64,000 nt of DNA from Bdellovibrio svalbardensis (GTDB taxonomy: Bacteria > Bdellovibrionota > Bdellovibrionia > Bdellovibrionales > Bdellovibrionaceae), in NCBI RefSeq assembly GCF_029531655.1, contig NZ_JANRMI010000001.1, positions 682,001-746,000 of the forward strand, read 5' to 3'. Position 1 is the first letter of the stretch; each line of letters begins with the position of its first letter. The notes below the pieces were generated by a model. That model saw only the letters and a list, made by a program, of their open reading frames with translations. It did not search any database and was not told the DNA's origin. The translations under genes and the position numbers were made by a program. Positions 41,815 through 63,162 of the stretch are shown here, piece by piece.

Positions 41815-41895
41815 GTGAGTTGAGAATAGATTTCCTGAGAATTGGACTTTCAGCACGAACACCTGTTTGTTAACATGGTTTTAAGAGGGAAAAAT

Positions 41896-43852: not shown

Positions 43853-43971
43853 TTACCAAAAAAACGTAGGAAAAATCATATTCAACACGCTAAAATGTGA
43901 GAAGCAACAGTGTTTTGTAGATGAAAATTTGTGTTTTTTTGTTTGTCGATTCGGGACGTCTTGGAGCATCG

Positions 43972-46900
43972 ATGAAGTTTGTGAAGAAGTTGAAGAAAAT
44001 ATCGCTATTCATTGCCACAACCATGGTGCTGGCGGCATGTGAAAAAACAGACCTAAAAGGGTTTGTTGGTGGTGATACGCAAGCTGGAAGCGGCGGTGGC
44101 TCGACAACTCCTATCTCAAATTTGTTGGTAATGACGTCCACTCTTCCTGAAGTTTCTTTTGTCGAAGGTGCAACCAATAAAGTAGTCGTGCAGTTCAACA
44201 AGCCGTTGCCTCGTAATACAACGGTGAACTGGAGTATCGAAAATGGCGCGAGTGATTTTCTAGCGACCAGTGGAACCCTGTCATTAGCGTCGGGTGCGGA
44301 TTCCTTAGAATTAAATTTAACTGCCAAGACGGACGCTCTTTATGAGGGAGAAGAAAAGTTCTATCTGCGCTTGAGCGGCGATGCTTTGCTTTTTTTGGGA
44401 ACTTTGTCAGTTCCCCTGAAAATTCAAGAGCTGGCGGCGCAACCTGCGGTGAGCTTTCAGATTCCATCGCAAACTGTTTTGAAAAGTGCCGGGAAAACCA
44501 ATGTTAAAGTTCTTTTGTCCCAGGCGACAGCCATTCCCATTAAAGTTGATTTTACAATCTCTGGCACAGCCGCTGATGGTGTGGACTATACAATATCGGA
44601 CAAGAACTTTGTCATCATTGAAGCCGGAACAACTGCAAAAGATATCGTAGTTTATCCACGGGCAGACGTAGCTCCCGGAGCTATGAAAGAAGTTAAAATT
44701 ACGGCAACGGCCGTGACTTCATTGGTCAGCTTGGACAGCGGTAATGCCACTCACTCCGTCTATATTCAGGATAACGGAGCTTCTGCTTTAACATCTATCG
44801 CTGGTGTTACTGGGGGAACGGATACAAAGCAAGATGGCTATCTGACCAACGGAAATCATGCGACGATTTCTTGGACGGCGGCACCGGGTGCGACGGGATA
44901 TCGTTTGGCGATTTACAATAATGCCAGTGCTTTATTGTGTGGGCCGGTGACAGTGGGCGCCTCAATCACCAGCTATGATTATGCAGGTTGCAACTTGGCT
45001 GAGGGCACTACGTACAAGATATCCCTTGAAGTGGATAAGAGTGGTACGTACTCGAATGCCAATAATAATATGTTCCCGTTCACGGTGGACACATTGCCGC
45101 CAGCGGCTCCACAGATTTTGGGAGCCTTTGGTGGAACTGACTTGAATCCGGATTCTTTTTTGGCCGGTACCGTAAACCCATCAGTCTCTTGGATTGATAC
45201 GACTGGTGAAAATAGTTATGCCGTGAGTGTCGTGAGTGAGACCGGAAATCTTCCGGTCTGTCCTGAAGTTATTGTTGGTGCAAACGTCACGGCCTATTCA
45301 TTTTCTGATTGTTCTTTAACTCGTGGGCTTAACTACAAGATCAAGCTTGTCGCGAGGGATGCGGCTGGAAATCAGAGATCGGCTTCAAATGACTTGTTCA
45401 GTTTCCTGGTGACAGAAGTTCCTGCGGGTTATGTGGTCACGGGAGTCATGGGTGGCACTGGCGACACTCTGGCAGATGATAAAATGAATGATGGGGTTGA
45501 TCCGATTATTCAATGGGAAATCGCTGCGGGTGCACAACGTTATGAAGTGATTCTTTTAAATATGGACAACTCGGTAAAGTGTCCATTGGTCAGCGTTCCG
45601 GGCACTGACCGCCAGGTGACCTTCACGAATTGTCGCTTGGATCTGCATGAACAATATAAAGTCAAAGTGTCGGCTTATGATGCCAGTGATCTGGTTTATC
45701 CCGCAGCGAACTCACCTTTTATTTTTAGACATCAAGTGGGTCTTTATATTTCGGGTGAACCGGTAGGGCCTGGGCGAGTGGGTTCTTACTATCGTGGAAT
45801 TCCGATCACAAGTTGTGGTGGACCTGATGGTGACTTGTGTGATTCGACGACTCCATATGTTGTTAGCGAAGAGCTTAGTGAAACGCAGATTCGAGTTGAT
45901 CAGAATGGCGTGTTGGCAGGAACGGCTTATTCGACAGGGGTTCCAGCTATTGGCAATGGAATTCTGAAAGTCACAGCGGACTATTTATTACTTAGTAAGG
46001 GCGGCAAGATTTCGATGACAGGTCGGGGCTTTGCTGCCAGCAACGGTCCGGGTAAAGGTGCGGATGGGAATCCAGCAGCGGGTGCAGCTCATGGTGGATT
46101 TGGTTCGTTGGTGGGCGCTTTAGCACAAGCTCAACCTTATGGTTTGGTAAAAGCTCCGGATACGCTGGGTAGCGGTGGTGGAACAAACGGTGCAAATCTT
46201 GGTGGTGCTGGCGGTGGAATTGCGCAGATCACAGTAAATCAAAAATTAAGTTTTGCGAGCGGCTCGGTTGAATCAGGAGGACGTAACGGTGCCACTGGTG
46301 CTGGCGGCGGTTCGGGTGGAAGTGTTGTGGTCAATGCCAAGAACGTCGCAGGTTCTGGTGGAACTATTTCAGCTGAAGGGGGCCTCGGCGGCACCGGCAG
46401 CAAAGGTGGTTCTGGCGGTCACGTCGCATTATTATATGAAAATATGCAACATGCCGGAGGCCTTACGGGCATGGGCCTTTGGGTTCGTGGTGGCGGAGTT
46501 GGAACGGCTACGGGAACTGTGTATTATTCAACTTTCACGGATCCCTTGGGATATTTGGTCGTGGACAGTGGTGCGAATACGCAAACTCAAGGAGTTGAAA
46601 CTCCGTTGCCGTTGTCAGAGACCTTTAATGAAATTGTCACACGGAACTATGGAACGTTGATTTTATCTGCGGGCGATTCTTATCAATTGCAACGTCCTGA
46701 GCTGACTTATCGACTGGTTGTTGCTGGGACGCTGACAACTCATCCAACCGTCCCCACTCATCTGCAAATTGGTTTGAATGGATATCTCGAATGGCGACGA
46801 AACGATGCCATCAACAGTTGGACAGATATTTCTGTCAAAGTGGGTGGAACGCTGACTCACAGCTACAATGCATCGAGCTTGGTTTATGCTTTGAATCTTG

Positions 46901-49900
46901 TGACTACAAATTTAAATCTGGCCGGAATGATTGATGTTCAAGGCCGAGGATATAGCGCTGGAAACGGAAGTGGTACTGGAACTGGTGGTATGGGTGCCAG
47001 CTACGGAGGCCAAGGTGGAATTGCCTCAACAGGTGCCAGGGGAAATGCTTATGGTTCCACCAAAAATCCAACTGATTTGGGAAGTGGATCTTTAGCGGCT
47101 TCAGGTGGCGGTTATGTCAATATTCAGGTGACTAATCTTGATCTGAAAGGGCAGATCATTGCTTCAGGTTCACCAGGCTGCGGCGGTGGTTCCGGCGGCA
47201 GTATTAATATCACTGCGACGAACGTGAGTGGAACAGGGGCGCTGCTTGCGTCCACAGGTGGTGATGGTAGCGGTGGATGCGCCGGTGGTGGTGGTGGAAG
47301 AATCGCCATCAACTACACGAATACCACATATGTCGGAGGGGTCCCTGGGATCAAGTACGATATCTTTGGCGGAGCAGGTACCAAAGATGGTGCGGCAGGA
47401 ACGGTTTATCATAATCGTGTCGGTGTCGATACCTATGGAAATCTTCTTGTCTATAACGGGACCCGCACTTACGACGAATATATTTTGACTCCTCTTTCTG
47501 CAGCGGATCGATTTGATAGTATAACCACTGATTTCACCGGAACAGTTTGGATTCAGCCCTCACAGGTTTTCACTTTGCCAACGCCGACGATCAACTACCG
47601 CTTGGTGACTGAGGGTGATTTAGCTTTGCCTTCAGGAAACACTCTCACGGTTGGAAGTGGTGGTTATTTGGAGTGGCGAAAAAACACTCCATTGACCGTG
47701 ACCAATTTCAATTTGGATCAGGGTGGAATTCTCACTCACACATATAACAACACAGCACAGAACTATATTGTCAGCTTGGATGTTACGAATGCTGTCATCA
47801 ATGGCATAATTGATACTTCCAAAAGAGGTTATGCAGCGGCGAATGGCCCGGGCAAATCGACAGCTAACGGAACTGGTGCGGGTTATGGTGGTTACGGCGG
47901 TCAGAACGGAACGATCGACGCAGCTGCGGGTGGGACGGCTTACGATTATACATCTGCAAAGATTAAAGCTCCGGATCAGATAGGCAGTGGCGCAGTTATC
48001 AACAGTGGCGTGATTGGTGGATCCGGCGGTGGATATGTCCGTTTGAATGCAACGAGCACTTTGACTTTGAATGGCGTGATCAATGCGGATGGCAAAGACG
48101 CTGCTATTAGCACCAATGTAAATGGTGGTGGTTCCGGGGGCGCGATTTATATCACTGCTCATGAAGTGAAAGGTGCTAATGGCACCATTTCCGCGACAGG
48201 GGGCAGTGGTTGCATCTATGTTCCATCCGCTACAGCGTATGTATCAGGGAGCGGCGGTGGTGGACGTATTTCTGTTGTCTATGATGTCGATAGTTATACT
48301 GCCGGCTTTCAGTCATTGGTGGATTTTGAAAAAATTCGAACTTTCGGTGGCTACGGCTACAATTATTTTACAGGTGGCGCGGGCACAATTTACTTGAACT
48401 ATACCGGTGCCCCGTCGGTGAATGAAAAAATCATATTTAACAATGGTTCTAATCCTTACAATCAAGGCGCAGAGACTCCAGCTTTGATTGGGGTCACGGT
48501 GGATAAATTTGAAACTCGAAGAACGGCAACTTTGCGGGTGAACAGTGCAGATACCTACAACATGCCATCTTCTACTTTAGATTATCGCATTGTTGTTGCT
48601 GGTAACCTGGTTTCTCCGGATAACACACTGACGATGGAGAAAGATTCATATCTCGAGTTTAGAAGAGGAACATTGTATTCCTTGACGAGCCTGAAGATGA
48701 AAGAGGGCTCTTTTATTTCTCACTCTTATAATGGTGTTAATGCAGCCACTTTGCCATATCTGGTGAATTTGGATCTAGGCACCCTAGAGATGCAGGGTGG
48801 ATCGAAAATTGATGTTTCCAGAAAAGGATTTAAGCCGGGCACAGGTACTGGGTTCGGTAGCAACTCTGCAGCTTATGGCGGTAGAACGCAGGATGCTCAG
48901 CCTTATGGAGACTTCCAAGATCCTGTTGATCTGGGAAGTGGTGACTCGGGAACATCTGGCGGCGGTCGCATTCAGATAAATGTCACGGGTACATCAACAC
49001 TCAATGGAATCCTTGCTGCCGACGGTGGAGGCAGTGGCGGAACAATCAATCTTCGTACGCTAACTCTTGCGGGAACGACAGCGAAAGTTTCTGCAAATGG
49101 TGGCGGTAACGATTCCGGAGGACGCATTGCCATTCGCTATAAGAATGATAATTATGGCGTCTTCAATATGAACCTGACGGCCTATGGTGGCGATTCTTTC
49201 TCTGCGGCGGGAACTATTTTTGTTCAGGACACGGATGAAGCTCTTGGAACTTTGATCATTCGCAATTACGGCCGTGGTTATGGACAAGAGGGTATTGAAA
49301 CCAATCTACCGAACAACATACCTGTTAAAACGGTCATCGTAGACAAGGATGCTGTAGTTCGCGTTCCTCCAAGTGCTACCTTTGTAATGCCGGATTCTAC
49401 GATTAATTATAAGATTGTGGTTGAAGGTACTTTACAGCCGACGACTTCCACACTGACTGTTGCCTACGGAGGTCAGGTTGATCTAAGAACCAACACAGCC
49501 TTTGGAAAACCGATCTTTAATAATTTAGTGGTGAATCAGGGCGCATCTATATTTCACTCTTATAACGCTAGCTGTGCTGTTCAAAATTACGCGGTAAATC
49601 TGGATTTGGATAACTTCACATTAGATGGAGATATGCCTTTGAATGCTCGGGGATTTGCCCAGGCCTGCGGTCCCGGCGGAGGCCCCGGTGGAAATCTCAC
49701 CAGTCCGGCAGGAGCCAGCTACGGTGGTTTTGGACATGCCGGTGGAACTGCGCAGACGCAACCCTATGGATCTATTTCAAATCCGGTCGATATGGGTAGC
49801 GGTGGAGGAACAACTTGGGGCGGCCGAGGTGGAGGACTTGCTCTTATCAAGGTCGCAAATCGATTTACTTTTAACGGAACTATTAAAAGTAATGCCGGTG

Positions 49901-51219
49901 GTGCTTCAACTTTCGGAGCCTTCTATTCGGGCTCGGGCGGCAGTGGCGGCGGTATCAATATAAATACTAATATTATCGATGGGGCCGGTGGAAGAGTCGA
50001 AGCTTCAGGCAGTCCAGGTCAGGTTGCGGCCGGAGGGCATGTTCCTGGTTCAGGCAGCGGTGGTCGTATTGCGATAATCTACAAGGACGATCAGTATACT
50101 GGTGGTCTATCTTCAGTTTCGATTAAAAACTTCGGTGGAGCACGCGGTGGTAACATCAATGGTGCCGCAGGAACTACTTACATTGAGAAGCGAGACGGCT
50201 CTAATAATCCTTTGAATAAGCATTTGATCATGGACAACGGGATTATTGCTTATGCCGAAGGAAGTGAGACGGCAATTCTTCAAACAGAAACTTTTGATGT
50301 CATCGACGTCGGTTCAACCACCGGCGTCTATATCGGGCCTCTGGCGAGTTTTGCATTTTCAAGTTCAGATCTGACTTACCCGTTGAGATTGGCCGGAGCC
50401 GTCACCTTCCCAGGAAATAATTTGGTGATCCAACCGACGGGACGTTTGATTTTCTCAAAAACGGGAAGCTTTGTACTGAACAATCTAACGGTAGAGCCGG
50501 GGGGAATGATCACACATTCTCCGAATACGAAACCTTCGGATCTGAAAAATTATCTTGTGAATATTGAGGCAAATAATTTCTGGTTGAAGCCTGACGCGAG
50601 CATCGATGTTTCATACAAAGGCTATCAGTGCGGTCAGGGTCTGGGGGCTGGTACTATTAACACGTTTGGTTACTCCGGTTCCGGTGGTGGACATGGCGGC
50701 GTGGGTGGCACGGTTCCTAGTTGGACCGGTGTTTCGTCGATGCCGGGTGGTGTGTCTTATGGGGATCCAAATCTGCAAGATCCAGTGAATCCCGCGAAAG
50801 ACATTGGAAGCGGTGGTGCTGCTGGCAATCCAATTAATGGATTGTGCCGCGGCGGTGTTGGTGGCGGTGCCATTTATTTGAAAGTGAACAACACCTTGAC
50901 CTTGGAAGGTCGCATCTTTGCGAATGGTGCCGTAGGTATTCAAGACGGAGCGGATAAGAGCGGTGGCGGCGGATCCGGTGGTTCTGTTTATATCAATACC
51001 ACGGATCTGGATGGGGCATTCGCAGAAATCCACGCGGACGGTGGTGCTGTTCCAACTGGTATTCATATGGGTGGTTCTGGCGGCGGCGGTCGCATTTCTC
51101 TGAATGTATCTGGAAGCAGAGCCAGCTATGTCGGCAGCATCACATCGAGTGCGAATGCCGGTGCGGGTAGTTCGGATCGTTTGGGTGACGCTGGAACTAT
51201 TGGGGGCTTGTCATGGTAA
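43972..51219 (+). CDS. Giant glycine-rich repeat lipoprotein A, 2,415 residues
   Basis: ATG 43972 has GGAG six bases upstream and opens a lipoprotein signal (lipobox LAAC, Cys23); an in-frame ATG at 43921 precedes it without support. In order: two Calx-beta-like domains (about 45-265), three Ig/FN3-like domains each with a Cys pair about 17 residues apart (about 270-590), then six glycine-rich modules starting near bases 46021, 46942, 47821, 48820, 49645 and 50613, a period of about 920 bases. Each module begins with a G/K-x-G-[FY] step, has GASYGG, LGSGG and GGGGRI motifs, and is joined by spacers with LEWRR- and THSYN-like motifs. A beta-helix stack is likely. No autotransporter or sorting domain is seen. 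First of three coupled genes. Surface role inferred. Confidence 0.9.
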   Translation: MKFVKKLKKISLFIATTMVLAACEKTDLKGFVGGDTQAGSGGGSTTPISNLLVMTSTLPEVSFVEGATNKVVVQFNKPLPRNTTVNWSIENGASDFLATSGTLSLASGADSLELNLTAKTDALYEGEEKFYLRLSGDALLFLGTLSVPLKIQELAAQPAVSFQIPSQTVLKSAGKTNVKVLLSQATAIPIKVDFTISGTAADGVDYTISDKNFVIIEAGTTAKDIVVYPRADVAPGAMKEVKITATAVTSLVSLDSGNATHSVYIQDNGASALTSIAGVTGGTDTKQDGYLTNGNHATISWTAAPGATGYRLAIYNNASALLCGPVTVGASITSYDYAGCNLAEGTTYKISLEVDKSGTYSNANNNMFPFTVDTLPPAAPQILGAFGGTDLNPDSFLAGTVNPSVSWIDTTGENSYAVSVVSETGNLPVCPEVIVGANVTAYSFSDCSLTRGLNYKIKLVARDAAGNQRSASNDLFSFLVTEVPAGYVVTGVMGGTGDTLADDKMNDGVDPIIQWEIAAGAQRYEVILLNMDNSVKCPLVSVPGTDRQVTFTNCRLDLHEQYKVKVSAYDASDLVYPAANSPFIFRHQVGLYISGEPVGPGRVGSYYRGIPITSCGGPDGDLCDSTTPYVVSEELSETQIRVDQNGVLAGTAYSTGVPAIGNGILKVTADYLLLSKGGKISMTGRGFAASNGPGKGADGNPAAGAAHGGFGSLVGALAQAQPYGLVKAPDTLGSGGGTNGANLGGAGGGIAQITVNQKLSFASGSVESGGRNGATGAGGGSGGSVVVNAKNVAGSGGTISAEGGLGGTGSKGGSGGHVALLYENMQHAGGLTGMGLWVRGGGVGTATGTVYYSTFTDPLGYLVVDSGANTQTQGVETPLPLSETFNEIVTRNYGTLILSAGDSYQLQRPELTYRLVVAGTLTTHPTVPTHLQIGLNGYLEWRRNDAINSWTDISVKVGGTLTHSYNASSLVYALNLVTTNLNLAGMIDVQGRGYSAGNGSGTGTGGMGASYGGQGGIASTGARGNAYGSTKNPTDLGSGSLAASGGGYVNIQVTNLDLKGQIIASGSPGCGGGSGGSINITATNVSGTGALLASTGGDGSGGCAGGGGGRIAINYTNTTYVGGVPGIKYDIFGGAGTKDGAAGTVYHNRVGVDTYGNLLVYNGTRTYDEYILTPLSAADRFDSITTDFTGTVWIQPSQVFTLPTPTINYRLVTEGDLALPSGNTLTVGSGGYLEWRKNTPLTVTNFNLDQGGILTHTYNNTAQNYIVSLDVTNAVINGIIDTSKRGYAAANGPGKSTANGTGAGYGGYGGQNGTIDAAAGGTAYDYTSAKIKAPDQIGSGAVINSGVIGGSGGGYVRLNATSTLTLNGVINADGKDAAISTNVNGGGSGGAIYITAHEVKGANGTISATGGSGCIYVPSATAYVSGSGGGGRISVVYDVDSYTAGFQSLVDFEKIRTFGGYGYNYFTGGAGTIYLNYTGAPSVNEKIIFNNGSNPYNQGAETPALIGVTVDKFETRRTATLRVNSADTYNMPSSTLDYRIVVAGNLVSPDNTLTMEKDSYLEFRRGTLYSLTSLKMKEGSFISHSYNGVNAATLPYLVNLDLGTLEMQGGSKIDVSRKGFKPGTGTGFGSNSAAYGGRTQDAQPYGDFQDPVDLGSGDSGTSGGGRIQINVTGTSTLNGILAADGGGSGGTINLRTLTLAGTTAKVSANGGGNDSGGRIAIRYKNDNYGVFNMNLTAYGGDSFSAAGTIFVQDTDEALGTLIIRNYGRGYGQEGIETNLPNNIPVKTVIVDKDAVVRVPPSATFVMPDSTINYKIVVEGTLQPTTSTLTVAYGGQVDLRTNTAFGKPIFNNLVVNQGASIFHSYNASCAVQNYAVNLDLDNFTLDGDMPLNARGFAQACGPGGGPGGNLTSPAGASYGGFGHAGGTAQTQPYGSISNPVDMGSGGGTTWGGRGGGLALIKVANRFTFNGTIKSNAGGASTFGAFYSGSGGSGGGININTNIIDGAGGRVEASGSPGQVAAGGHVPGSGSGGRIAIIYKDDQYTGGLSSVSIKNFGGARGGNINGAAGTTYIEKRDGSNNPLNKHLIMDNGIIAYAEGSETAILQTETFDVIDVGSTTGVYIGPLASFAFSSSDLTYPLRLAGAVTFPGNNLVIQPTGRLIFSKTGSFVLNNLTVEPGGMITHSPNTKPSDLKNYLVNIEANNFWLKPDASIDVSYKGYQCGQGLGAGTINTFGYSGSGGGHGGVGGTVPSWTGVSSMPGGVSYGDPNLQDPVNPAKDIGSGGAAGNPINGLCRGGVGGGAIYLKVNNTLTLEGRIFANGAVGIQDGADKSGGGGSGGSVYINTTDLDGAFAEIHADGGAVPTGIHMGGSGGGGRISLNVSGSRASYVGSITSSANAGAGSSDRLGDAGTIGGLSW

Positions 51220-54200
51220 GAGCATTGTTATCACTGGCATTCATTTCAAGCTTGCTTTTGGGTTGCACAGTCTCGTCACCTACAGAGCCATTGCCCACTT
51301 TCGGTCAGGAACTTGTCGCAGCAAAGGTGATGACTTCCAATATTGAAATTATTGAGGGCAACATCGCCCTGGTGAATGTGAAATTCGAGCGGCCCATTAA
51401 AGTCCAAGCTTATGTGTCTTGGGAAGTGCGTGCTGGCATTGGGCGATTTATTCACCCGAATGGAATGGAGATCGTAAAGCCTGATCAGACAGAGTTTACC
51501 TTTGCATTGGAAAGCTATAAGAACGACACCATTGATGGCACACAGGAGTTGGAACTCGTCATGGACTCAACAGTGTTCCCCGCGCCATTGACGACGCTGG
51601 TGAAATTGATTGATCCCTCTGTTCCGACACAATTGAGTTTTGTAAGTGGAGATCTTTTTGCTTTTCCATCCAGTTCGGTCAATCAGACTGTCACGATGTC
51701 AGTCGTCATGCAGAATTCCGGGGCCGTTGCTGCGGGTGCAATTGCCACGTCGGACTTAACAGCCCCTTTCCGTTTTGTCGGAGGCTCATATCCTGGAACC
51801 GGTGGAACCTGCACCCTTTTGTTGAAAGCGAATGAAACCTGTACATTGAATCTTGAAGCAAAGATGACGGCACCAGGAATCATTGATCAAGTGGTGACTT
51901 TCACTTACTTCAATGGACAAGCTTCGGTTACTAAAGATATCACTTTGCGCGCGGCCTCAGACGATGTGATTACGACCCTTTCGGGTGTCCCTGATCTTTA
52001 TTCGAATGTTACAAATTTAAATGTCACGGTCGCTGGTCCGGGGATAACGAGTTACAAATATAAAGTTGGTTTGGCATCTTCGACGACTTGTTCGGACAGC
52101 AGTGGCTATAGCGCTGGAATCGGCATTGCCACTAAAATTACAAATTCAATTTCGGGTTTGAGTGATGGCGCAATTAAATTATGTGTTGTGGGATTTGATG
52201 GCGTTAAATGGCAAGCCTATGCAGCGGCGACTTTCTATTCTTGGACGAAGTCCACAATGCCGCCACAAAATCCGTCAATTAAAATTGAAGGTGATAAGAC
52301 TTATGTGAACTATCTGGCGGTGGGCTTGCAGCTTTCCGCTGAAGGTGCGCAATTTATGTATGTCACAAGTGCCGCCGGATGCAACGCCGGGGGAACTTGG
52401 GAAATTTATGATCTTAATAAAAATTGGACTTTGAGTTTTACAAATAGTCCGAACAATGTTTATGCAAAATTCCGGGACCGGTTGGGAAATGAAACGGCTT
52501 GTATCAGTGACTCGATCATTCATGACAATTTAAAACCCACGGTCACTGTAAATCAATCCGGGTCGCAGGCCGATCCGACAATGGTGCTGCCCGTTTCTTT
52601 TGACGTGCAGTTTTCAGAAAATATTGATGCTGCTTCCTTTACGGTTGATTCGATTCAGCAGAAGGGTTCTGCTTCGGGAGTGCGTTGGAATATTGTCCAT
52701 GTTTCCGGGGGACAGTACCGTATTGAAGCCACGTCGGTAGATGTCGGTGGCACGATTGTGCCCTCAATTGATGCTGACTCTGTCAAGGACTTGGCGGGAA
52801 ACTTCAATCGGGCATCGACCTCAATTGATGCGAGTGTTTCTTTCAATGTCGTAGAGTTCTTTATGAAGGATGTTATTGCCGGAAGCAAAAACACCTGTGC
52901 ATTAAGCACTGACAATTCAACCTATTGCTGGGGTGATAACAGCAAAGGGCAGTTAGGTATCGGTGTCAACGGGGGAGTCAGAACTCAACCGGCGAAATTG
53001 GATCTTTCAGGCCCCATCAAATACTTTACGAAGGTTTCGGTAGGAAATGAGTTTTCTTGCGGACTTAGTATTAACGGGCAGATTTACTGTTGGGGTGAAA
53101 ATTCTCAGCATAATCTTTCCGACGGGACAGTGACAAATCGTAATGCTCCGGTGCAAGCCGTGCCGTGCGGAGATACTTACGCGAATTGTGATTCGCCTTA
53201 TCTGGGAGCTTTTAATAACCCCATTCCGACCTATGGTCGATTTACTGACTTGGCGGTGGGGCCTTATCATGCGTGTGGCCTATGGCAAAATGGCAAAGTG
53301 GTTTGCTGGGGACGAGCGCTTGAAGGTCAGTTGGGAAATGGCCATCTTCATGAATTTAAAGGCTTTGCTTTTGCTACTGATGAATCCTCTTATGGAATGG
53401 ATATCACAGCGTTGGAAGCTGGCACGAACTTCACCTGCGGTCTGGTCGCTAATGGCCGAATTGTCTGTTGGGGTCAGGGTGATTCCGGTCAGATCGGCAA
53501 CGGGCAATGGATTAATCAAAGCCTTCCAAAATTGGTCGCGACTGCAGGTATCACAGGATTTCAAGGTTTCTTAAATCTATCTGCCGGTGCGGAACATGTC
53601 TGCGCGGTTCACGCGGATTCGAAAGTTTACTGTTGGGGGCAAAACTCACATGGACAGCTGGGAAATAATTCGGCCGTCAGCTCGAATATGCCTGTCGCAG
53701 TCGATGTGTCTGCGATAACACCGACACCGCAATTTATTGAAGTGCAAGCGGGTGCACAGCACACCTGTGCGCGCACTGTGGATTCTCGTGTCTTTTGCTG
53801 GGGGGCCTCAGGCAGCGGACGCTTGGGCGCGGTGGCAAGCGGTGATCAATTGACTCCTCTCGAAGTGAAGAACGGTCCAGGTGCGTTGAAAAATGTTTTC
53901 AAACTGAGTGTTGGTGAAAACCACAACTGTGCACTGACTGCGGACGGCAAGATCAGTTGCTGGGGTGAACAAGGTGCTGATGGACGTTTAGGTAATAATG
54001 CTTTTGTGTTCTCTCAGGATCCAGTCGCGGTGGATGTAAGTGGACTTCTTGGTAAACGTGGATTTGCCCAGTTGTCAGCGGGTTATAACCATACTTGCGG
54101 TGTCAACACCGCTGGCAAGGTTTATTGCTGGGGTAATGGAGCAAAAGGGCAATTGGGTAGTGGCAATAGCACACGCAATTCGCCTTATGAAATCACTATG

Positions 54201-55193
54201 ACTTCGGTGACGGGCGGGGCTGCGTTTAAGCAGGTCGAAGTGGGCTATGAATTCTCATGTGCGCTGGCGACCGATGGAAAAATTTATTGCTGGGGTGATA
54301 ATCCTGAGGGGCAATTAGGCAATGGCAATTCGATCTCATATGGAGTTCCGGTGCCTGTGGATACAAGCAGTATAACTTCGTTCTTAGGCTTTAAATCACT
54401 TTCAGTCGGCAAGAGCCATGCGTGTGGATTGCATGCTGACGGAACTCTCTATTGTTGGGGTTACGGATACTTTGGACAGCTAGGGCGAAATACTCCGTTA
54501 AGCTCGAATAAGCCAGTGGCAGTTGTTACGTCTTCAACTCCAGGTTTAGGCTTAATTAAACAAGTCGATCTGGGTGATCTTCACTCTTGTGTGAACACCG
54601 CAAACGGAAAAGCTTATTGCTGGGGTTACGGAGCTCAAGGGCGTTTGGGTAATAATTCGACATCAGACAGATCTCTGCCTGTTGCAGTTGTGAGTACTTC
54701 ATTCCCAGCAAGATCAGTCGTCACTCAGATTGCAGGTGGTGGGGATCACTCCTGTGTGTTGTTGTCGGGAGACTCGGGTGTCTATTGCTGGGGCTATGGC
54801 TTGGATGGACGACTTGGGGATTCCAATACGTTGACACGATTGGCACCGGTTAAAACTCAATTGCCAATGGGAACTTTTGCAAAATCGTTGTCGTTGGGTC
54901 GAGAACATTCGTGTGCGATCGTAGCGAATAATTCCAATGTTTATTGCTGGGGGCAAGGAACGCTCGGACGGGTTGGGGATGGAGCCTTGCTATTCCGTAT
55001 TGCTCCAACCGCGTCGGTGTTTACTGCCATCAGTGACTATGCAGGTTCTTCTGCCATTACGACTGGTGGAACTCATACCTGTGCAATTGGTATGACTGGA
55101 GAGTCTTATTGTTGGGGTGAAGGCGTGGACTTCAAACTTGGAACAACAAGAACGGATACTGAAAACACACCAACAAAAGTTCTATATCCATAA
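51213..55193 (+). CDS. RCC1-repeat lipoprotein, 1,326 residues
   Basis: The ATG overlaps the stop of giant gene A (ATGGTAA, 7 bp), so translation is coupled. Lipobox LLGC (Cys18). A Calx-beta-like domain (about 40-135), a Hydin/choice-of-anchor-like domain (about 140-250) and two Ig-like domains precede the C-terminal half: 14 RCC1-type repeats, each HxC...(9-11)...CWG followed by G-x-LG, two Cys per repeat. Fourteen blades fit two seven-bladed propellers. RCC1-like propellers bind proteins or sugars in many systems. The partner here is unknown, most likely giant A or B. Confidence 0.92.
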   Translation: MVRALLSLAFISSLLLGCTVSSPTEPLPTFGQELVAAKVMTSNIEIIEGNIALVNVKFERPIKVQAYVSWEVRAGIGRFIHPNGMEIVKPDQTEFTFALESYKNDTIDGTQELELVMDSTVFPAPLTTLVKLIDPSVPTQLSFVSGDLFAFPSSSVNQTVTMSVVMQNSGAVAAGAIATSDLTAPFRFVGGSYPGTGGTCTLLLKANETCTLNLEAKMTAPGIIDQVVTFTYFNGQASVTKDITLRAASDDVITTLSGVPDLYSNVTNLNVTVAGPGITSYKYKVGLASSTTCSDSSGYSAGIGIATKITNSISGLSDGAIKLCVVGFDGVKWQAYAAATFYSWTKSTMPPQNPSIKIEGDKTYVNYLAVGLQLSAEGAQFMYVTSAAGCNAGGTWEIYDLNKNWTLSFTNSPNNVYAKFRDRLGNETACISDSIIHDNLKPTVTVNQSGSQADPTMVLPVSFDVQFSENIDAASFTVDSIQQKGSASGVRWNIVHVSGGQYRIEATSVDVGGTIVPSIDADSVKDLAGNFNRASTSIDASVSFNVVEFFMKDVIAGSKNTCALSTDNSTYCWGDNSKGQLGIGVNGGVRTQPAKLDLSGPIKYFTKVSVGNEFSCGLSINGQIYCWGENSQHNLSDGTVTNRNAPVQAVPCGDTYANCDSPYLGAFNNPIPTYGRFTDLAVGPYHACGLWQNGKVVCWGRALEGQLGNGHLHEFKGFAFATDESSYGMDITALEAGTNFTCGLVANGRIVCWGQGDSGQIGNGQWINQSLPKLVATAGITGFQGFLNLSAGAEHVCAVHADSKVYCWGQNSHGQLGNNSAVSSNMPVAVDVSAITPTPQFIEVQAGAQHTCARTVDSRVFCWGASGSGRLGAVASGDQLTPLEVKNGPGALKNVFKLSVGENHNCALTADGKISCWGEQGADGRLGNNAFVFSQDPVAVDVSGLLGKRGFAQLSAGYNHTCGVNTAGKVYCWGNGAKGQLGSGNSTRNSPYEITMTSVTGGAAFKQVEVGYEFSCALATDGKIYCWGDNPEGQLGNGNSISYGVPVPVDTSSITSFLGFKSLSVGKSHACGLHADGTLYCWGYGYFGQLGRNTPLSSNKPVAVVTSSTPGLGLIKQVDLGDLHSCVNTANGKAYCWGYGAQGRLGNNSTSDRSLPVAVVSTSFPARSVVTQIAGGGDHSCVLLSGDSGVYCWGYGLDGRLGDSNTLTRLAPVKTQLPMGTFAKSLSLGREHSCAIVANNSNVYCWGQGTLGRVGDGALLFRIAPTASVFTAISDYAGSSAITTGGTHTCAIGMTGESYCWGEGVDFKLGTTRTDTENTPTKVLYP

Positions 55194-55216
55194 CTGGTAT
55201 TGGATCTGAGGGGATT

Positions 55217-58200
55217 ATGAATAGAACGATTTTTATATCACTGCTGTTGCTGCTGAGTCTGACTTTGTCGGCCTGCAACCTCTTTGATAAAAAGGTTGAA
55301 GGTTATGTTGGCACCGAGACCGGAGGAGCCAGCGTCCCTGGCAGTCCTAGTAGTTCTAAGGTGGGTATGGCCGCGACAGCTTCTGTAGTGGTATTCACGG
55401 AGGGCGGAACAACCGACGCGATCATTCAATTGAATCGACCTCTTCAGTCTGCGGCAACTTTAAATTGGACAGTTGAAAATGGAACCGCAGACTTTGTAAC
55501 CTCATCTGGAACTGTCAATCTAAGTGCCAATGACACCAGTTTCCGAATTCCTTTGGCGGCGGTTGCGGATGGACTTTATGAAGGGGATGAAACCTTCAAC
55601 TTGCGTATCGAAGGTGACAGCAGTGTTTTTTCGACAGTACTTGTTGTTCCATTGAAGATTCAGGAAACTCAAGCTCGTCCCAGTGTCAGTTTTGAAAACG
55701 CTGGTCAGTCAAAAACCAGATCTGATGTTATGGCGACCGCAAAGGTTCGTTTGTCGCAAGCCTCTGCCTTTGTCACGAAAGTACTTTTGAAAACTTCAGG
55801 TTCGGCAACAGGTGGCGGTGTCGATTATGATCTTTTGCCAAGTGATGCCGTAATTTTTGGGCCTGGAGAGACGGAAAAAATTCTGACGGTTTTAATTAAA
55901 TCCGGCGGTGGGCCCAAACCTCTTCAGGATATTGTTATTAGTTTAGATCGCATTGAATATGGGGCGGCGGCGGTGGACTCTGCCAACAACGCTCATACTA
56001 TTTTGCTTTCAGACCCGGCGGGCACGGGGCTTTTTCCTATCACTGGGATCACTGGTGGTACGGATGGCACAGCCGATGGCTATTTGACCAACGGGGCGGT
56101 TCCTACAGTTCGTTGGACAAATGCCGCGAATCAGAACGGATACCAAGTTACTATATTTGAAAATGACGGAACCACGATCAAATGTGCCCCGGTCACAACA
56201 TTGCCTGATGTTATTTTTAAAACGATGACGGGTTGTAATCTTACAGAGGGAAAAACCTATAAAGCTTCCGTCGTCGCATTGTTTGCTTCCGGACCTTCAC
56301 CTGCAAGCAATGACCTTTTTCCATTTCAAGTTCACACAGTGCCGCCGACAAATTTTGGAATCATTGGTCTTATGGGTGGTACGGATATTTCACCCGATGG
56401 ATTTTTGGCAGGTTCATTGGTGCCGACCATTGTGTGGGGAGATTCTACAGGGGAAAACTCCTATGAAATCAGAGTTAAGAATACAGGTGGCACGACAATC
56501 TGTGGACCGATAACGGTCTTTGCCAATGTCACTTCAGTTTCAATGGAAGGATGCACACTCACTGCTGGCACTTCTTATAAAGCTTCAGTCATAGCTCTGG
56601 ATGCTGCGGGCTTCAGCGTTGCTGCAACCAACAATGATTTCAATTTTACGGTGACCAATTCAACTTCGGGATATTTGATCTTGGGAGTCACCGGTGGTTT
56701 GGGTGATACGACGGCGGATGACAATATGGATGATGGACTTAATCCTATCATCAATTGGCAGACCGCACTGAATGCATCGAATTATGATGTGTCGATTTTG
56801 AATTTAGATAATTCAGTGAATTGTGGTCCCGTGAATGTCTCGGCTGCAACGAAGTCTTATATGCTGGCGGGATGTCAGTTACGTCTGCATGATCAGTACA
56901 AAGTTGTTGTGGTCGCAAAAGATGCGCTTAATAACAGTTATCCTGCTGCGAATGGTCCTTACGTGTTCCGACATCGTGTAGGATTGTACATTAACGGCGG
57001 CGGCGGATCTTACTTCCATGGGCAGACTGTGACTTCTTGTGGGACCGTGGGAAATCGTGATGCTTGTAATGCTGCGACTCCATATGAAGCGACCGCTGAA
57101 ATCGTTGAGTCACAAATACGAGTTTCTAATAATGGTGTGATTTCTGCGAAGGCCTGGGCCGGTGATGCGGCAACGGTTGGCAATGGAATTTTAAAAATTA
57201 CAGCGGACTATCTTCGCTTGGATACCAATGGAAGTTTGGTGGCTTCAGGTGCGGGATATAAATCGACATTAGGACCTGGAGCTGGTCAGTCGGGAACCTG
57301 GGCGATGGGGGCTTCTTACGGTGGGCTCAGTGGTCTTTTGGTTGGGAAAGTACAGTCACCGGCATACGGTAATGCAAAAATTCCCGGTGTTATGGGTAGC
57401 GGTGGCGGTGCCGGCAGTGGAGTTGCAGGCGGCGCTGGCGGAGGGATCATTGATCTCACGGTCAATACCAGCTTGGATTTTGCAACGGGCAGTATTGTTT
57501 CCAACGGTGGTGTAGGTGGATATCAGACGGGACCAAGTTGTTGGACTTCAGGCGGTGGTGGTTCCGGCGGTTCTATTTACATCAAAGCGGCGAACATCGG
57601 TGGATCTGGTGCGAACATTTCTTCTATTGGTGCCGGGATTCCAACTGTCGGCTGTGCAAACTCAGGTGGTAGTGGTGGACGGGTTTCTTTGAACTACGAC
57701 ACCATCACTTATACCGGAGGCGTGACGACCTTGACTGCGAACACCCACGTCAGAGGTGGAGGAGCAGGGGCCGCAAAGGGCGCTTCAGGAACGATCTACT
57801 ATCTTAATTGTAAGGATCCTTTAAATTGCAGTGTGTCCCCGAAGAATGGATATTTGATCGCCGATAATGAAGGGGCTGTTCCACATTATCAGGGCGTGGA
57901 GACACCTATTCCAATAGATGTGTTTGACGGTATCAGCACACGCAATGATGGAACCTTTATTGTACTTCCAGCAGATGAGTACTTGCATCGTTTTCCAAAG
58001 GTTGATTTTAGAATTGTTATCGCAGGCTTGATATCAATGCCAGCACCATTGGATCCAAAAACTTTGGATATTGGACCGAATGGATATTTTGAATGGCGCC
58101 GTCTGGGGCAAGTCAGAGATTGGGATAATATTATTGTAGAGTCTGGTGGAGTCTTAACTCACACCAGTAATTCCAACACCGAGACCTATAAGCTGGATAT

Positions 58201-61200
58201 CAGTACCGTCAATCTGACCGTGTTGGGTAAAATTGATACTGATGGACGCGGGTATACGGATCGCAGTGGGCCCGGTGGCGCGACCATTGGCGGAGCGGCC
58301 TATGGAGGCATGGGTAGTAGCGGTAGCAACTCTTTGGTTTATGGTGATATCAGAAATCCTCAAGGATTGGGAAGTGCTGCTGCGGGAGCGGGATCTTCGG
58401 GTGGAGGCTGGATTAAAATTGCAGCCGACTCATTGGATATTTCTGGCGGGACCTTGTCTGCCAAAGGAGTGTCGGGTGGTTCTGGTGGAACTATTTTTGT
58501 TAATGGCAATATTCTAAAAGGAACCGGCGGCACGCTGGATGTCGAAGGCGGTGCGAACGGCCCCAGCAATCTTAGCGGTGGCGGTGGTCGAATTGCTGTG
58601 TACTACAATGATGCGAGCTTGCTTCCTGCTGCATCCGTGACTTCTCTGACTTTCAAAACTAAAGGTGGGTCAGCTGGGAACACCGGAGCTTCGGGGACAG
58701 TTTTCCACAAACAAAATTTAGAAACGTACGGCAATCTGATCGTGCGCAACGAGACGAACACTTATAACGAGGCCGTGCTCACACCTTTACGAGATGCTGG
58801 GACTTTTGATTCGATCACAACGGATACGAACGGAACAGTTATCGTCCCGGCGGGTCTAACGGTGCAATTGCCTTCTACAAATATTAACTATCGTTTGGTG
58901 ATGGAAGGTGGATTTACACTTCCAGGTGGCGCTTCGAATATGACTATCAAATCGGGTGGCTATCTTGAATGGCGTCAGACATTGCCACTTCAGTTGAGCA
59001 ATCTCACGATTGAGTCTGCGGGACTGTTGACGTCCTCAACAAACAGTTCTGCAAAACAGTACTTCGTCAATTTGGATATTTCCAACACTTTGCTGATTCA
59101 AGGAGATATTGATGTCAGCAGACGAGGCTATGCTTCGATGAGAGGCCCGGGGGCTCCTCGGAATGGGGGCTTAGGTGCCGCGTACGCTGGCTATGGTGGA
59201 AGTAATAATGCTCTGACTGTTTTAGACAGCACTCCTTATGGTCTGGCTGATGTAAAGAATCCGACCGAGATGGGCAGTGGAGGAAACGGCTCTGCTGGTG
59301 GTGGATTGGTTTTGATCAAGGCACTGGGCGGAACTGGAAGCGTGAATTTGCAAGGGCGAATTTTAGCAGATGGTCAAGGCAGTGGTTCTACCGGAGGCTC
59401 GGGTGGAAGCGTTTATATTCAAGCGGATAGTATTACGGGAACTGTCGCGGGGCAGATCTCTGCGAATGGCGGATCCAGCGGTAACAGTGGTTCTGGAGGA
59501 AGAATTGCGGTTGTTGTCGGGACAGATTCATTCCCGGGAAAATTAGCCAGTCAAATTCCTGCAGGAAATCTTCGTGCCTACGGTGGCACAGTTAATTATG
59601 GCGACAATCGTGGTGGAGCCGCTGGTTCCATTTATCTGAAGGAAAGCACCGACACTCAAGGCCGTGTTTACTATGACAATAACAACTTTGCCTATGCTTC
59701 TTATGTCGAAACTCCTTATTCCGAGGGTGTGCTATTCGACTCAATATCAACGACTCGCAATGCGACCCTGATTGTGACAAGTGGACAAACAGTGACTTTG
59801 CAGTCGGACACTTTGCCTTTCCGACTTGCGATCGAAGGTATGTTGTCGACACCTGGAAATAATTTGATTCTTGATACCAACTCCTTGTTAGAGTGGCGAA
59901 AAATCACACCAATGAGTTTCGGGGATATCACAATAAAAACAGGTGCCACTTTAAGACACACAGCTAATGGCACACAGAAAAGTTATGCTCTGAATATCAA
60001 TGCTGCCAATTTTGATTTGCAAAATGGCGGTCTTATTGACTTGGATGGAGCTGGCTATTCTGCAGGTAACGGGCCTGGTGCAAGTTCAGGGGCGGGTGCT
60101 CATGGTGGCAATTCTAATTCCGGCAAGGCCTATGATTCTGTGATTTGGCCTGAAGATCTTGGTAGTGGTGGCGCGGGTGCCAACGGCGGCGGAGCCTTGA
60201 TTGGCACAATCTCGGGGACTTTGACATTAAATGGAAATATCAGAGCTCGCGGTACGAACGGGACCCATGGTGGTGCGGGTGGAAGTATCGCATTTGATAC
60301 GAATGTTCTTGCGGGATCTGCGGGAGTGTTGAATGTGAATGGTGGCAATGGTGCTGGTGGTGAAGGCGGTGCTGGCGGTCGCATTGCAGTTCTTTACAGC
60401 TCAAGCAGTTACACACCAAATGTCGATGGATTGATTAATACGGCAACTGCCATAGGTGGAACTGGTGCAGGCAGCCTCGATGGTGGTGCTGGTACAATTT
60501 ATTATAGAAATAAGACGCTCGAAGCTGCGGGGCAAGGGCATTTGGTCATTCGCAACACAGGCAGAACATACAATGAAGCGGTGACAACGCCTCTTCCAGA
60601 GCAGCCAAATATGGGGACTATCGTGGTGGATACTGCGGGAGCCGTGGAGATTCCGATGGGGTCGAGTGCAAACTTGCCCACCTCTGATCTGACCTATCGG
60701 TTGATTTTAGCTGGAGACGTCACGGTTCCGACAAGAACTTTGAATGTTAAATCCGGTGGTGTTTTAGAAATCAGACGTGGTGCCCCAGTGACCAGTATTG
60801 ATTATTTGACGGTCGATGCAGGTGGCTTGATCACTCATACAAAAAATCTGGATGTAAAAAGATATTCCGTCTATTTGAAAACCGTGGATTTTAATCTCAG
60901 CGGGAAAGTGGATGTTTCGGCAAGAGGTTACGTCAGTGGCTATGGATCAGGACGTGGTAATTCTGTGGCATCAGGGGGCGCTCCGGGCGGTTCTCATGCA
61001 GGTTTGTGCCATCCAGCAACGGGCAGCTGCTATTCAGCTTATGACTCTTTAAAGTCACCAGCAGATTTAGGAAGTGCTGGAGGTTACTCCGGAGCTTATG
61101 CCGGTGGATCCGGTGGAGGAATGTTTACACTGGAGACAACGTCGGCAACTTTACAAGCGGGTTCTGAAGTTCGAGCTGATGGGCAAAGTGCTGCTTCCAC

Positions 61201-62452
61201 TGGAGGATTTTATCCAGGTGGTGGTGCCGGGGGCTCAATTAATATTTCTGCAACTGCAACTTTGACGGCGAATGGCTCCACTTTATCGGCCAATGGCGGT
61301 AATGGTGCGGGTAACGTCGGTGGAAATGGCGGTGGCGGTCGAATTTCTTTGGTTTATCAGACGGGGCCTAACGAAGCGACACTGCTCAGTAGCAATTCAA
61401 TTTCAAGCATGGGTGGTAACATTCCAACTATCGGCCTGAAAATGGCGGGAGCTGGAACCGTTTACTATCACTACAAAGACAGCGCTGAAACATACGGTCG
61501 TCTTCGTATTGATAATAAAGGCAATCCATACTTCGAAGGCTCAGAGACAGAAATTATTCAAAATGACTTCCTTCAGGCTCTGACAGTTGCGGACTCCACA
61601 ACGGGGTTGGCGATTCGTTCCGGAGTGAGTTTCGATATGTTGACTTCAAATTTGGATTTCCCTCTGCGCATGGCGGGAACGGCGAATTTCAATGGCGGCA
61701 TTTTGAATGTGAAGCCAACGGGTTTGTTGAACATCGATCGTAGTACCAAATACAGTCTGAATTCATTGACTGTTGAGAGCGGTGGTAAAATCAGTCATTC
61801 CGCGAATGGAGCGGTCCAACGAAGTGCCGTCTATATCGAGACGGTCGGGGATCTTGATTTACAATCCGGCTCATTAATTGATGTGTCAGCGAAAGGATAT
61901 AGTGCAGGGTTGGGATCTGGTCGTGCGCAATCTTCTGGAGGAGCTAAAGCCGGCGGTGGAGCTGGTCACGGTGGTGTCGGCGGCGGCGACGGTTCAACTT
62001 CCACACCAGGTCTGACTTATGGATCCTATGACTTCCCGACTTCTATCGGAAGTGGTGGCGCAGATGGAAAACCTGGTTGTGTCGGTGGAATAGGTGGCGG
62101 TGCTGTGCGCTTGAAGGTCAACGGACAGTTGTCTTTGAATGGGCAAATTTTGGCGAACGGGCAGAGTGCATCCTCATCAGGATGTGACAGTGGCGGCGGA
62201 GGATCTGGCGGCAGTGTCTTTATTGAAACCAATGTCCTTGCAGGCAATGGAACCACGGGACAGGTGCATAGCGATGGTGGTGGTGCACCGGCTGGCACCA
62301 GCAATCACGGTGGCGGCGGAGGCGGCGGTCGTATCGCTATTACAGTAACAACTGCAGGCGGAGTTGTTCCACCGGTAGTGATGGCGAGTGGTGGAACTGC
62401 TTATGCAGGTAAGCTTGGTTCTAACGGAACTGTCAAACAAGTGATTCCATAG
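55217..62452 (+). CDS. Giant glycine-rich repeat lipoprotein B, 2,411 residues (paralogue of A)
   Basis: Starts 23 bp after the RCC1 gene with GAGGGG upstream. Lipobox LSAC (Cys20). The same order as A: two Calx-beta-like domains, three Ig/FN3-like domains with Cys pairs, and six glycine-rich modules (starts near 57247, 58243, 59117, 60046, 60920, 61889; period about 930 bases), joined by spacers with the same EWR- and HT-x-N-type motifs. The proteins are clearly paralogous but diverged throughout, so the duplication is old and maintained. No C-terminal sorting signal. It ends in a hairpin with the convergent FKBP gene. Likely exposed on the outer surface, inferred from lipid anchor and repeats. 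Confidence 0.9.
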   Translation: MNRTIFISLLLLLSLTLSACNLFDKKVEGYVGTETGGASVPGSPSSSKVGMAATASVVVFTEGGTTDAIIQLNRPLQSAATLNWTVENGTADFVTSSGTVNLSANDTSFRIPLAAVADGLYEGDETFNLRIEGDSSVFSTVLVVPLKIQETQARPSVSFENAGQSKTRSDVMATAKVRLSQASAFVTKVLLKTSGSATGGGVDYDLLPSDAVIFGPGETEKILTVLIKSGGGPKPLQDIVISLDRIEYGAAAVDSANNAHTILLSDPAGTGLFPITGITGGTDGTADGYLTNGAVPTVRWTNAANQNGYQVTIFENDGTTIKCAPVTTLPDVIFKTMTGCNLTEGKTYKASVVALFASGPSPASNDLFPFQVHTVPPTNFGIIGLMGGTDISPDGFLAGSLVPTIVWGDSTGENSYEIRVKNTGGTTICGPITVFANVTSVSMEGCTLTAGTSYKASVIALDAAGFSVAATNNDFNFTVTNSTSGYLILGVTGGLGDTTADDNMDDGLNPIINWQTALNASNYDVSILNLDNSVNCGPVNVSAATKSYMLAGCQLRLHDQYKVVVVAKDALNNSYPAANGPYVFRHRVGLYINGGGGSYFHGQTVTSCGTVGNRDACNAATPYEATAEIVESQIRVSNNGVISAKAWAGDAATVGNGILKITADYLRLDTNGSLVASGAGYKSTLGPGAGQSGTWAMGASYGGLSGLLVGKVQSPAYGNAKIPGVMGSGGGAGSGVAGGAGGGIIDLTVNTSLDFATGSIVSNGGVGGYQTGPSCWTSGGGGSGGSIYIKAANIGGSGANISSIGAGIPTVGCANSGGSGGRVSLNYDTITYTGGVTTLTANTHVRGGGAGAAKGASGTIYYLNCKDPLNCSVSPKNGYLIADNEGAVPHYQGVETPIPIDVFDGISTRNDGTFIVLPADEYLHRFPKVDFRIVIAGLISMPAPLDPKTLDIGPNGYFEWRRLGQVRDWDNIIVESGGVLTHTSNSNTETYKLDISTVNLTVLGKIDTDGRGYTDRSGPGGATIGGAAYGGMGSSGSNSLVYGDIRNPQGLGSAAAGAGSSGGGWIKIAADSLDISGGTLSAKGVSGGSGGTIFVNGNILKGTGGTLDVEGGANGPSNLSGGGGRIAVYYNDASLLPAASVTSLTFKTKGGSAGNTGASGTVFHKQNLETYGNLIVRNETNTYNEAVLTPLRDAGTFDSITTDTNGTVIVPAGLTVQLPSTNINYRLVMEGGFTLPGGASNMTIKSGGYLEWRQTLPLQLSNLTIESAGLLTSSTNSSAKQYFVNLDISNTLLIQGDIDVSRRGYASMRGPGAPRNGGLGAAYAGYGGSNNALTVLDSTPYGLADVKNPTEMGSGGNGSAGGGLVLIKALGGTGSVNLQGRILADGQGSGSTGGSGGSVYIQADSITGTVAGQISANGGSSGNSGSGGRIAVVVGTDSFPGKLASQIPAGNLRAYGGTVNYGDNRGGAAGSIYLKESTDTQGRVYYDNNNFAYASYVETPYSEGVLFDSISTTRNATLIVTSGQTVTLQSDTLPFRLAIEGMLSTPGNNLILDTNSLLEWRKITPMSFGDITIKTGATLRHTANGTQKSYALNINAANFDLQNGGLIDLDGAGYSAGNGPGASSGAGAHGGNSNSGKAYDSVIWPEDLGSGGAGANGGGALIGTISGTLTLNGNIRARGTNGTHGGAGGSIAFDTNVLAGSAGVLNVNGGNGAGGEGGAGGRIAVLYSSSSYTPNVDGLINTATAIGGTGAGSLDGGAGTIYYRNKTLEAAGQGHLVIRNTGRTYNEAVTTPLPEQPNMGTIVVDTAGAVEIPMGSSANLPTSDLTYRLILAGDVTVPTRTLNVKSGGVLEIRRGAPVTSIDYLTVDAGGLITHTKNLDVKRYSVYLKTVDFNLSGKVDVSARGYVSGYGSGRGNSVASGGAPGGSHAGLCHPATGSCYSAYDSLKSPADLGSAGGYSGAYAGGSGGGMFTLETTSATLQAGSEVRADGQSAASTGGFYPGGGAGGSINISATATLTANGSTLSANGGNGAGNVGGNGGGGRISLVYQTGPNEATLLSSNSISSMGGNIPTIGLKMAGAGTVYYHYKDSAETYGRLRIDNKGNPYFEGSETEIIQNDFLQALTVADSTTGLAIRSGVSFDMLTSNLDFPLRMAGTANFNGGILNVKPTGLLNIDRSTKYSLNSLTVESGGKISHSANGAVQRSAVYIETVGDLDLQSGSLIDVSAKGYSAGLGSGRAQSSGGAKAGGGAGHGGVGGGDGSTSTPGLTYGSYDFPTSIGSGGADGKPGCVGGIGGGAVRLKVNGQLSLNGQILANGQSASSSGCDSGGGGSGGSVFIETNVLAGNGTTGQVHSDGGGAPAGTSNHGGGGGGGRIAITVTTAGGVVPPVVMASGGTAYAGKLGSNGTVKQVIP

Positions 62453-62487
62453 AGCTGAATCCAGAGCTGAATTGAAGCTCAGTTCTA
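62450..62487. terminator. Hairpin between convergent giant B and FKBP genes
   Basis: TAGAGCTGA (62450-62458) pairs with TCAGTTCTA (62479-62487) with one G-U pair; the arms contain the stop codons of both genes. A second AGCTGAAT copy lies in the loop. No T-tract. Confidence 0.45.
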
Positions 62488-63162
62488 TGGTTTAACTTTT
62501 ACAAGTTCTAAATCGTAAATCACCAAAGATTGTGGCGGCACGCCAGTCGTGCCGCGAATTCCGAAGGCATGCTGGGGACCCGAGAAGATAATCACTTTTT
62601 GTCCTTCATTCATGAGGGGCAAAACTTTTCTCCAGGCACTGATCATGTCTACGACTTTAAATTCTTTGGGGCTCTCTTTGTCTGAGCTATCAACAAACAC
62701 ACTTTCATCAAGCAGGCGACCTTGGTATTTCAGAACGACAGTATCTGAAAGCTTCGGCTGACGTCCGTGCCCTTTGGAAACTATCTTGTACTGTAAGCCA
62801 TCGTCCAAAAGCTTAATATCCGGTGCGGACTGGTTCTTGCGCAAATAATCTTCCGCTTCAAGTCCACGTTTCACAAGTTCTGCGTTGTTTTTAGAATTCT
62901 GATTTTGCTGATAGTTCATCAAGGTCTGATGAACTTCTTTTATTGAGGGCGAGTCAGAGTTGGGATTGAGTCCTTCCTTGAGTCCTTTAAAAAAGGCTTT
63001 TTCATTCAAGGAAATTTTTTGCTCCCGAATGCCGTAACCCATTTGCAGACCAAGATTGTAACTGTATTCTTCAAGATCATTTTTTTTTGAAAAACAGCCG
63101 GTCAAGCCGATTGATAAAATGAAGCAAATAGAAAGATTTGGTTTGATACGAAATATGTTCAT
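62485..63162 (-). CDS. FKBP-type peptidyl-prolyl isomerase lipoprotein
   Basis: 225 residues. Lipobox LTGC (Cys23) followed by an N-terminal helical dimerisation region like FkpA/Mip (SYNLGLQMGYGIREQKISLNEKAFFKGLKEGL, about 33-66) and an FKBP domain (LQYKIVSKGHGRQPKLSDTVVLKYQGRLLDESVFVDSS, AWRKVLPLMNEGQKVIIF, YDLELVKVKP). It is a periplasmic, lipid-anchored folding helper. No upstream partner gene is obvious, and it converges with giant B. The start at 63162 has a weak ribosome-binding site. Confidence 0.88.
   Translation of the reverse strand: MNIFRIKPNLSICFILSIGLTGCFSKKNDLEEYSYNLGLQMGYGIREQKISLNEKAFFKGLKEGLNPNSDSPSIKEVHQTLMNYQQNQNSKNNAELVKRGLEAEDYLRKNQSAPDIKLLDDGLQYKIVSKGHGRQPKLSDTVVLKYQGRLLDESVFVDSSDKESPKEFKVVDMISAWRKVLPLMNEGQKVIIFSGPQHAFGIRGTTGVPPQSLVIYDLELVKVKP

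Follow-up and report, generated by a model that had tools for sequence, protein, structure and literature searches.

The genes at positions 43972-62452 of the window, i.e., of the whole stretch of 64,000 nucleotides of Bdellovibrio DNA that was analysed, encode two giant paralogous lipoproteins, A and B, and an RCC1-repeat lipoprotein between them. They are part of an accessory insertion, which we read with moderate confidence as an outer-membrane display island of giant beta-solenoid adhesins with partner-switch-like regulation. The genes of the region are the following:

41842..42681, plus strand: fliA, for the flagellar sigma factor; it borders the insertion site on the left and is outside the system
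42765..43568, minus strand: hexapeptide-repeat (acyltransferase-like) protein, encoded by the first of the inserted genes that follow fliA; its membership in the system is doubtful
43972..51219, plus strand: gene A, a lipoprotein of 2,415 aa with two Calx-beta domains, Fn3-like domains and six glycine-rich modules (predicted beta-solenoids)
51213..55193, plus strand: RCC1 gene, a lipoprotein of 1,326 aa with weak choice-of-anchor-D and Ig-like matches, followed by 14 RCC1 repeats
55217..62452, plus strand: gene B, a lipoprotein of 2,411 aa, co-linear paralogue of A
62485..63162, minus strand: FKBP-type prolyl isomerase lipoprotein, which may help folding in the periplasm; its gene is convergent with B
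63206..64000 and past the end of the window, minus strand: FecR-like protein of 627 aa with a predicted N-terminal membrane segment

The three open reading frames of the locus were found where the preliminary description had placed them, all on the plus strand. The frame of gene A, which ends at 51219, has an alternative start at 43921, and 43972 is preferred because a GGAG lies just upstream of it, while 43921 has no comparable site. The RCC1 start overlaps the stop of A by 7 bp, and 23 bp separate the RCC1 gene from B, both as described before. All three proteins indeed match the PROSITE lipobox pattern; the residue at position +2 is E in A, T in the RCC1 protein and N in B, and in none of them Asp. 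Also in agreement with the earlier description, no sorting domain of Pfam or NCBIfam was matched in A, B or the RCC1 protein. Three open reading frames of 4-7 kb with curated domain matches and paralogy are far beyond what chance would produce. The Pfam search revealed 14 RCC1_2 stretches in the middle protein (PF25390, E 5e-129), which verified the proposed number of repeats, and these would form two seven-bladed propellers. A sigma-28 promoter for A was considered and rejected, as the best partial match had only 8 of 12 positions, and a scan for sigma-70 promoters gave a result no better than shuffled sequences.

The paralogy of A and B, for which about 2,410 residues, the same order of domains and six modules each had been proposed, was borne out by BLASTP (39% identity over 1,990 aa). 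In both proteins Calx-beta domains are followed by Fn3-like domains and then by the modules, which are located as follows:

45946..51216, plus strand: modules 1-6 of A, with starts at 45946, 46867, 47746, 48745, 49570 and 50539
57173..62449, plus strand: modules 1-6 of B, with starts at 57173, 58169, 59045, 59972, 60845 and 61814

The modules are 275-333 aa long (about 300 aa), and the sixth is shortened to 212-226 aa. The co-linear pairing of the modules of A and B ranks second of the 720 possible pairings by the sum of identities, with 45% for A1-B1, 44% for A2-B2 and 43% for A6-B6. Because the identity matrix favours the co-linear pairing, a six-module gene was duplicated as a whole. The invariant columns of the modules are almost all Gly and are located in turns, and there is no conserved acidic cluster.

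The suggested structure prediction of one glycine-rich module was performed with AlphaFold2, using the 12 modules as alignment, and yielded a beta-solenoid for module A2 (pLDDT 88.3, pTM 0.89). Modules A2 and A3 modelled together had a pTM of 0.76. A second-look alignment of this two-module model, run on Foldseek's own candidate list, placed the secretion domains of HMW1 first (Z 12.0, rmsd 6.7, 232 aligned residues) and of HxuA second (Z 11.1, rmsd 4.3, 178 aligned residues). The best Z for the single module was 5.3, and Foldseek itself found no significant match to the modules in the PDB; the lack of a match for the single module is no argument for a new fold. Sequence searches of the PDB gave weak Fn3/Calx-beta matches only for A, and none for B or the barrel-like family described below. 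The modules are thus predicted to be right-handed beta-solenoids: HMW1 and HxuA on top of the list agree with this fold, yet the Foldseek result and the low Z of the single module mean that no specific family is supported by the models.

The site of the locus is variable within the genus. Upstream lies the flagellar export operon, which ends in FlhF-FlhG-FliA, and the next landmark after fliA is a sigma-factor gene on the opposite strand. The median distance between the two was 958 bp in the 22 genus genomes that have both on one contig, in comparison to 30,526 bp here (window position 42681 to beyond 64000; G000:C1:724678-755205), 10.4 kb in G018 and 7.6 kb in G020, and the cargo of the latter two genomes is unrelated to that found here. 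Bdellovibrio genomes have an insertion hotspot in this interval, with the locus as its accessory cargo here. Past B the order continues, to beyond the end of the window, with the genes for the FKBP lipoprotein, the FecR-like protein, a HAMP-SpoIIE phosphatase, a HATPase-like protein, a STAS-like protein and two barrel-like proteins of 449 and 349 aa. The SpoIIE gene, with its HAMP domain, is well matched (PF07228, E 8e-40), whereas the STAS-like (E 0.041) and HATPase_c-like (E 0.0018) matches are below the curated Pfam cut-offs.

The A-RCC1-B order was found in none of the 23 other genomes of the genus, and what the preliminary description had named as a refutation, genes not linked in relatives, largely applies to the trio. 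The module family is present in 7 of the 24 genus genomes, mostly in other, shorter secreted proteins. Two of them (G011, G022) encode secreted proteins of about 710-730 aa with three glycine-rich modules and the end FFRGY, a separate family that uses the same module. A first search of the genome contigs with the whole protein A gave no match, and a second search with an N-terminal alignment retrieved Bdellovibrio sp. MAG_58 (G008) and weak Calx-beta matches; a plasmid search gave no match. MAG_58 is the only other genome of the genus with an A-type giant; no RCC1 repeats were detectable in it, although the contig breaks off at the A-type locus. An A-type lipoprotein from a different genus of the family (G077, C23; L116:10313-12010) stops after the Fn3-like domains, and no modules follow downstream; it is a degraded or truncated copy. 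In a tree A and B group together against the copies of MAG_58 and G077 (bootstrap 77).

Many RCC1 lipoproteins of the genus occur without A or B. One of 1,430 aa, encoded elsewhere in the same genome (L130:8667-14066; G000:C1, about 834.7-840.1 kb), adjoins a gene similar to signal peptidase II (lspA). Also common in the genus is a fused lipoprotein of 1,949-2,611 aa with Calx-beta, Ig-like, Fn3-like and RCC1 parts, which match the N-terminus of the RCC1 protein, the Calx-beta/Fn3 region of the A-type proteins and the RCC1 repeats (G018, G023, G001, G002, G006, G007, G013 and G019; shorter in G005). In about nine relatives the RCC1 N-terminus has its homologue in this separate fused protein, which is encoded at other loci.

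Most of what recurs is encoded downstream of 43972-62452, in part outside the window. Homologues of the FecR-like protein (29% identity) and of the HAMP-SpoIIE phosphatase (47%) are encoded immediately before the A-type giant of MAG_58. FecR-like matches are present in every genus genome, but among the 24 genomes an E of 0 was reached only in the own genome and in MAG_58, both of which were also search seeds. The matches in the other 22 genomes covered part of the length, with E values between about 1e-29 and 1e-18, and a relative of the full-length type was found only in MAG_58. The locus of MAG_58 is split by an assembly gap, and another contig carries the same convergent barrel-like pair beside an FKBP lipoprotein at the contig end, with 49% and 27% identity to the pair of the island. 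The linkage conserved between the two genomes is that of the A-type giant, the FecR-like protein, HAMP-SpoIIE and the barrel-like pair, and not that of the trio. The idea that the FKBP protein is a specific orthologue shared with MAG_58 was rejected as unproved, because the genus-core FKBP is at least as close. The MAG_58 contig C193 ends in an open frame of 30 aa, possibly the 3' end of a giant, which is suggestive only. A more distant set of FecR, HAMP-SpoIIE and STAS-like genes was seen in G023 and on contig C2 of the own genome, where genes for a PAS/Hpt/HATPase kinase and a response regulator are its neighbours. A giant lipoprotein of 3,139 aa is encoded next to a HAMP-type SpoIIE phosphatase in G105 (L119:5007-16001), a genome from a different family of the same order.

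The 449-aa barrel-like family has one copy each in 6 of the 24 genus genomes. Beyond the own genome, in which the gene lies six genes from B and not adjacent to it, and MAG_58, it directly adjoins a gene for a giant protein in all four genomes. In G015 and G017 the two genes share a strand and abut or overlap, in G023 they are divergent, and in G010 giants lie on both sides. As a control, twenty regions of 20 kb were used: of their 385 genes, 5 (about 1.3%) adjoin an open reading frame of 1,100 aa or more. Four adjacencies in four would then have a chance probability of about 3e-8; taking the upper confidence limit, it is 8e-7. The giants of G015/G017 and of G023/G010 are homologous pairs, and the four adjacencies thus count as about two independent cases, for which the chance is about 2e-4 to 9e-4. 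Since the test followed the observation of the pairing, the latter should be taken as a hypothesis for new genomes. No match in Pfam, NCBIfam or the PDB marks these proteins as barrels, and the C-terminal aromatic residue is missing in two of the six.

Within the genus the full-strength A-type lipoprotein N-terminus is restricted to the own genome (G000), MAG_58, G015 and G017, all of which have the barrel-like gene. The short pattern C-x(2-9)-[LVI]-x-G-[YFW]-V after the lipid-anchored cysteine is shared by A and B, their copies in MAG_58 and G077, and the giants of G015 and G017; none of the 80 other lipobox candidates in the DNA examined has it. Because the N-termini that carry it are homologous, the pattern is a mark of the family; that it is a display signal is one possibility. 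A wider reading, which we regard as tentative and rather unlikely, is that giant lipoproteins have in the barrel-like family a partner dedicated to their display at the outer membrane, i.e., a new modular route of surface display, here with partner-switch-like control. One barrel family would then serve giants with beta-solenoids, Calx-beta repeats and OmpL47 repeats.

For the island as a whole we propose the following. A and B would be exported, lipid-anchored and destined for the outer membrane. The Calx-beta/Fn3 domains near the lipid would form a stalk, and the six beta-solenoid modules a stiff shaft of about 25-30 nm, as estimated from about 10-12 coils per module, and A and B may be rods that adhere or bind a matrix. 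The RCC1 lipoprotein would be cotranslated from its place between the two and may be an accessory double propeller, perhaps a ligand-binding partner. The FKBP lipoprotein would help in folding the rods, and the 449-aa and 349-aa barrel-like proteins would place or hold the giant lipoproteins at the outer membrane. The FecR-like, HAMP-SpoIIE, HATPase-like and STAS-like proteins could control deployment by partner switching upon an envelope signal. The gene structures, the paralogy, the predicted fold, the linkage and co-occurrence and the insertion at a variable site come directly from the analysis, whereas surface exposure, adhesion, the role of the barrels and the regulation are inferred; for contact with prey the data give evidence neither for nor against.

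The preliminary description had proposed a dedicated surface apparatus. A surface or outer-membrane destination is plausible, based on the lipoboxes without Asp at +2, the adhesin-type domains, the beta-solenoid modules and the giant-linked barrel-like genes; a conserved A-RCC1-B trio is not supported. That the three proteins alone form one complex, e.g., for prey contact, would fit their tight spacing, which makes one transcript likely, and their common lipoprotein nature, but it is improbable in view of an order seen in no other genome searched, of RCC1 lipoproteins without A/B and of the fused homologue at other loci. It is similarly doubtful that this is a recent, functionally loose cluster, i.e., hotspot cargo in which a giant gene was duplicated around an unrelated RCC1 gene. 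The 30.5-kb insertion at a site that carries unrelated cargo in other genomes and the grouping of A with B in the tree agree with it; however, both giants have stayed intact despite divergence to 39% identity, and MAG_58 has the A-linked signalling and barrel-like genes too, at another site.

Two further alternatives concern the giants themselves. A protein with a lipobox need not be exposed on the surface, searches of Pfam and NCBIfam matched neither a sorting domain nor a known display signal, and the barrel role is putative; A and B could face the periplasm, as structural or peptidoglycan-associated lipoproteins. We consider this unlikely, since a shaft of about 30 nm, if extended, is too long for a normal periplasm, the domains are typical of extracellular adhesins, and barrel-like genes are linked. 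Still less probable is that the solenoids bind or degrade polysaccharides of a matrix or capsule, like tailspikes or lyases. Phage tailspikes and polysaccharide lyases were among the second-look structural alignments, but their Z of about 6-7 is within the described background of the tool, no enzyme family was matched in Pfam or NCBIfam, and the glycine-dominated invariant columns include no acidic cluster.

An island displaying giant adhesins resembles several known systems in part. Two-partner-secretion exoproteins and autotransporter passengers (HMW1, HxuA, filamentous haemagglutinin, Ag43) are long right-handed beta-solenoid surface adhesins, and the modules of A and B are likewise predicted to be beta-solenoids. 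In contrast to them, A and B have a lipid-anchored N-terminus and glycine-rich modules with large loops. An N-terminal TPS/haemagglutinin-activity domain was found neither in Pfam nor in NCBIfam searches, the N-terminus being lipobox and Calx-beta, and a C-terminal autotransporter barrel domain is lacking, as both proteins end in the sixth solenoid module. Within the same genus, the MAT fibre proteins and the MIDAS adhesin Bd0875 are predator surface adhesins; the MAT fibres are trimeric, with exchangeable tips, S74 chaperones and beta-helix domains (PMC10769870, PMC11003981). The beta-helix domains parallel the predicted solenoids, but A and B are predicted to be single-chain solenoids with lipoboxes; no such tips were detected, and no S74 domain was matched in Pfam. 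Module 6 of A (residues 2243-2405) is locally similar to residues 242-405 of AgmC, a myxobacterial gliding protein (NCBIfam NF047640, E 3e-7). Only A matches, in the glycine-rich stretch alone, and its score of 29.7 bits lies below the cut-off of 275 for this family.

The SypE/SypA partner switch of Vibrio, with SpoIIE and STAS proteins, controls biofilm formation (PMC4517449). Similarly, phosphatase, STAS-like and HATPase-like genes lie here near the locus of a putative surface adhesin; different from SypE/SypA, the HAMP-SpoIIE protein occurs with a FecR-like protein, and the STAS and HATPase matches are weak. RCC1-repeat proteins of predators are known from Myxococcus, in which MXAN_0889 is vesicle-specific (PMC4158809), and from Bdellovibrio, in which they have been misannotated as RTX toxins (PMC5941755). 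They are likewise exported, with no known link to beta-solenoid giants.

The finding is of interest for the biology of predation. The recurrent pairing of barrel-like proteins with giants provides a short, testable list of candidates for a display route. Adhesin redundancy in predatory bacteria makes invasion mutants rare, and, to our knowledge, how and when these bacteria display giant surface proteins is largely unknown. The link to FecR-like and SpoIIE proteins suggests how kits for the display of giant proteins could be switched on.
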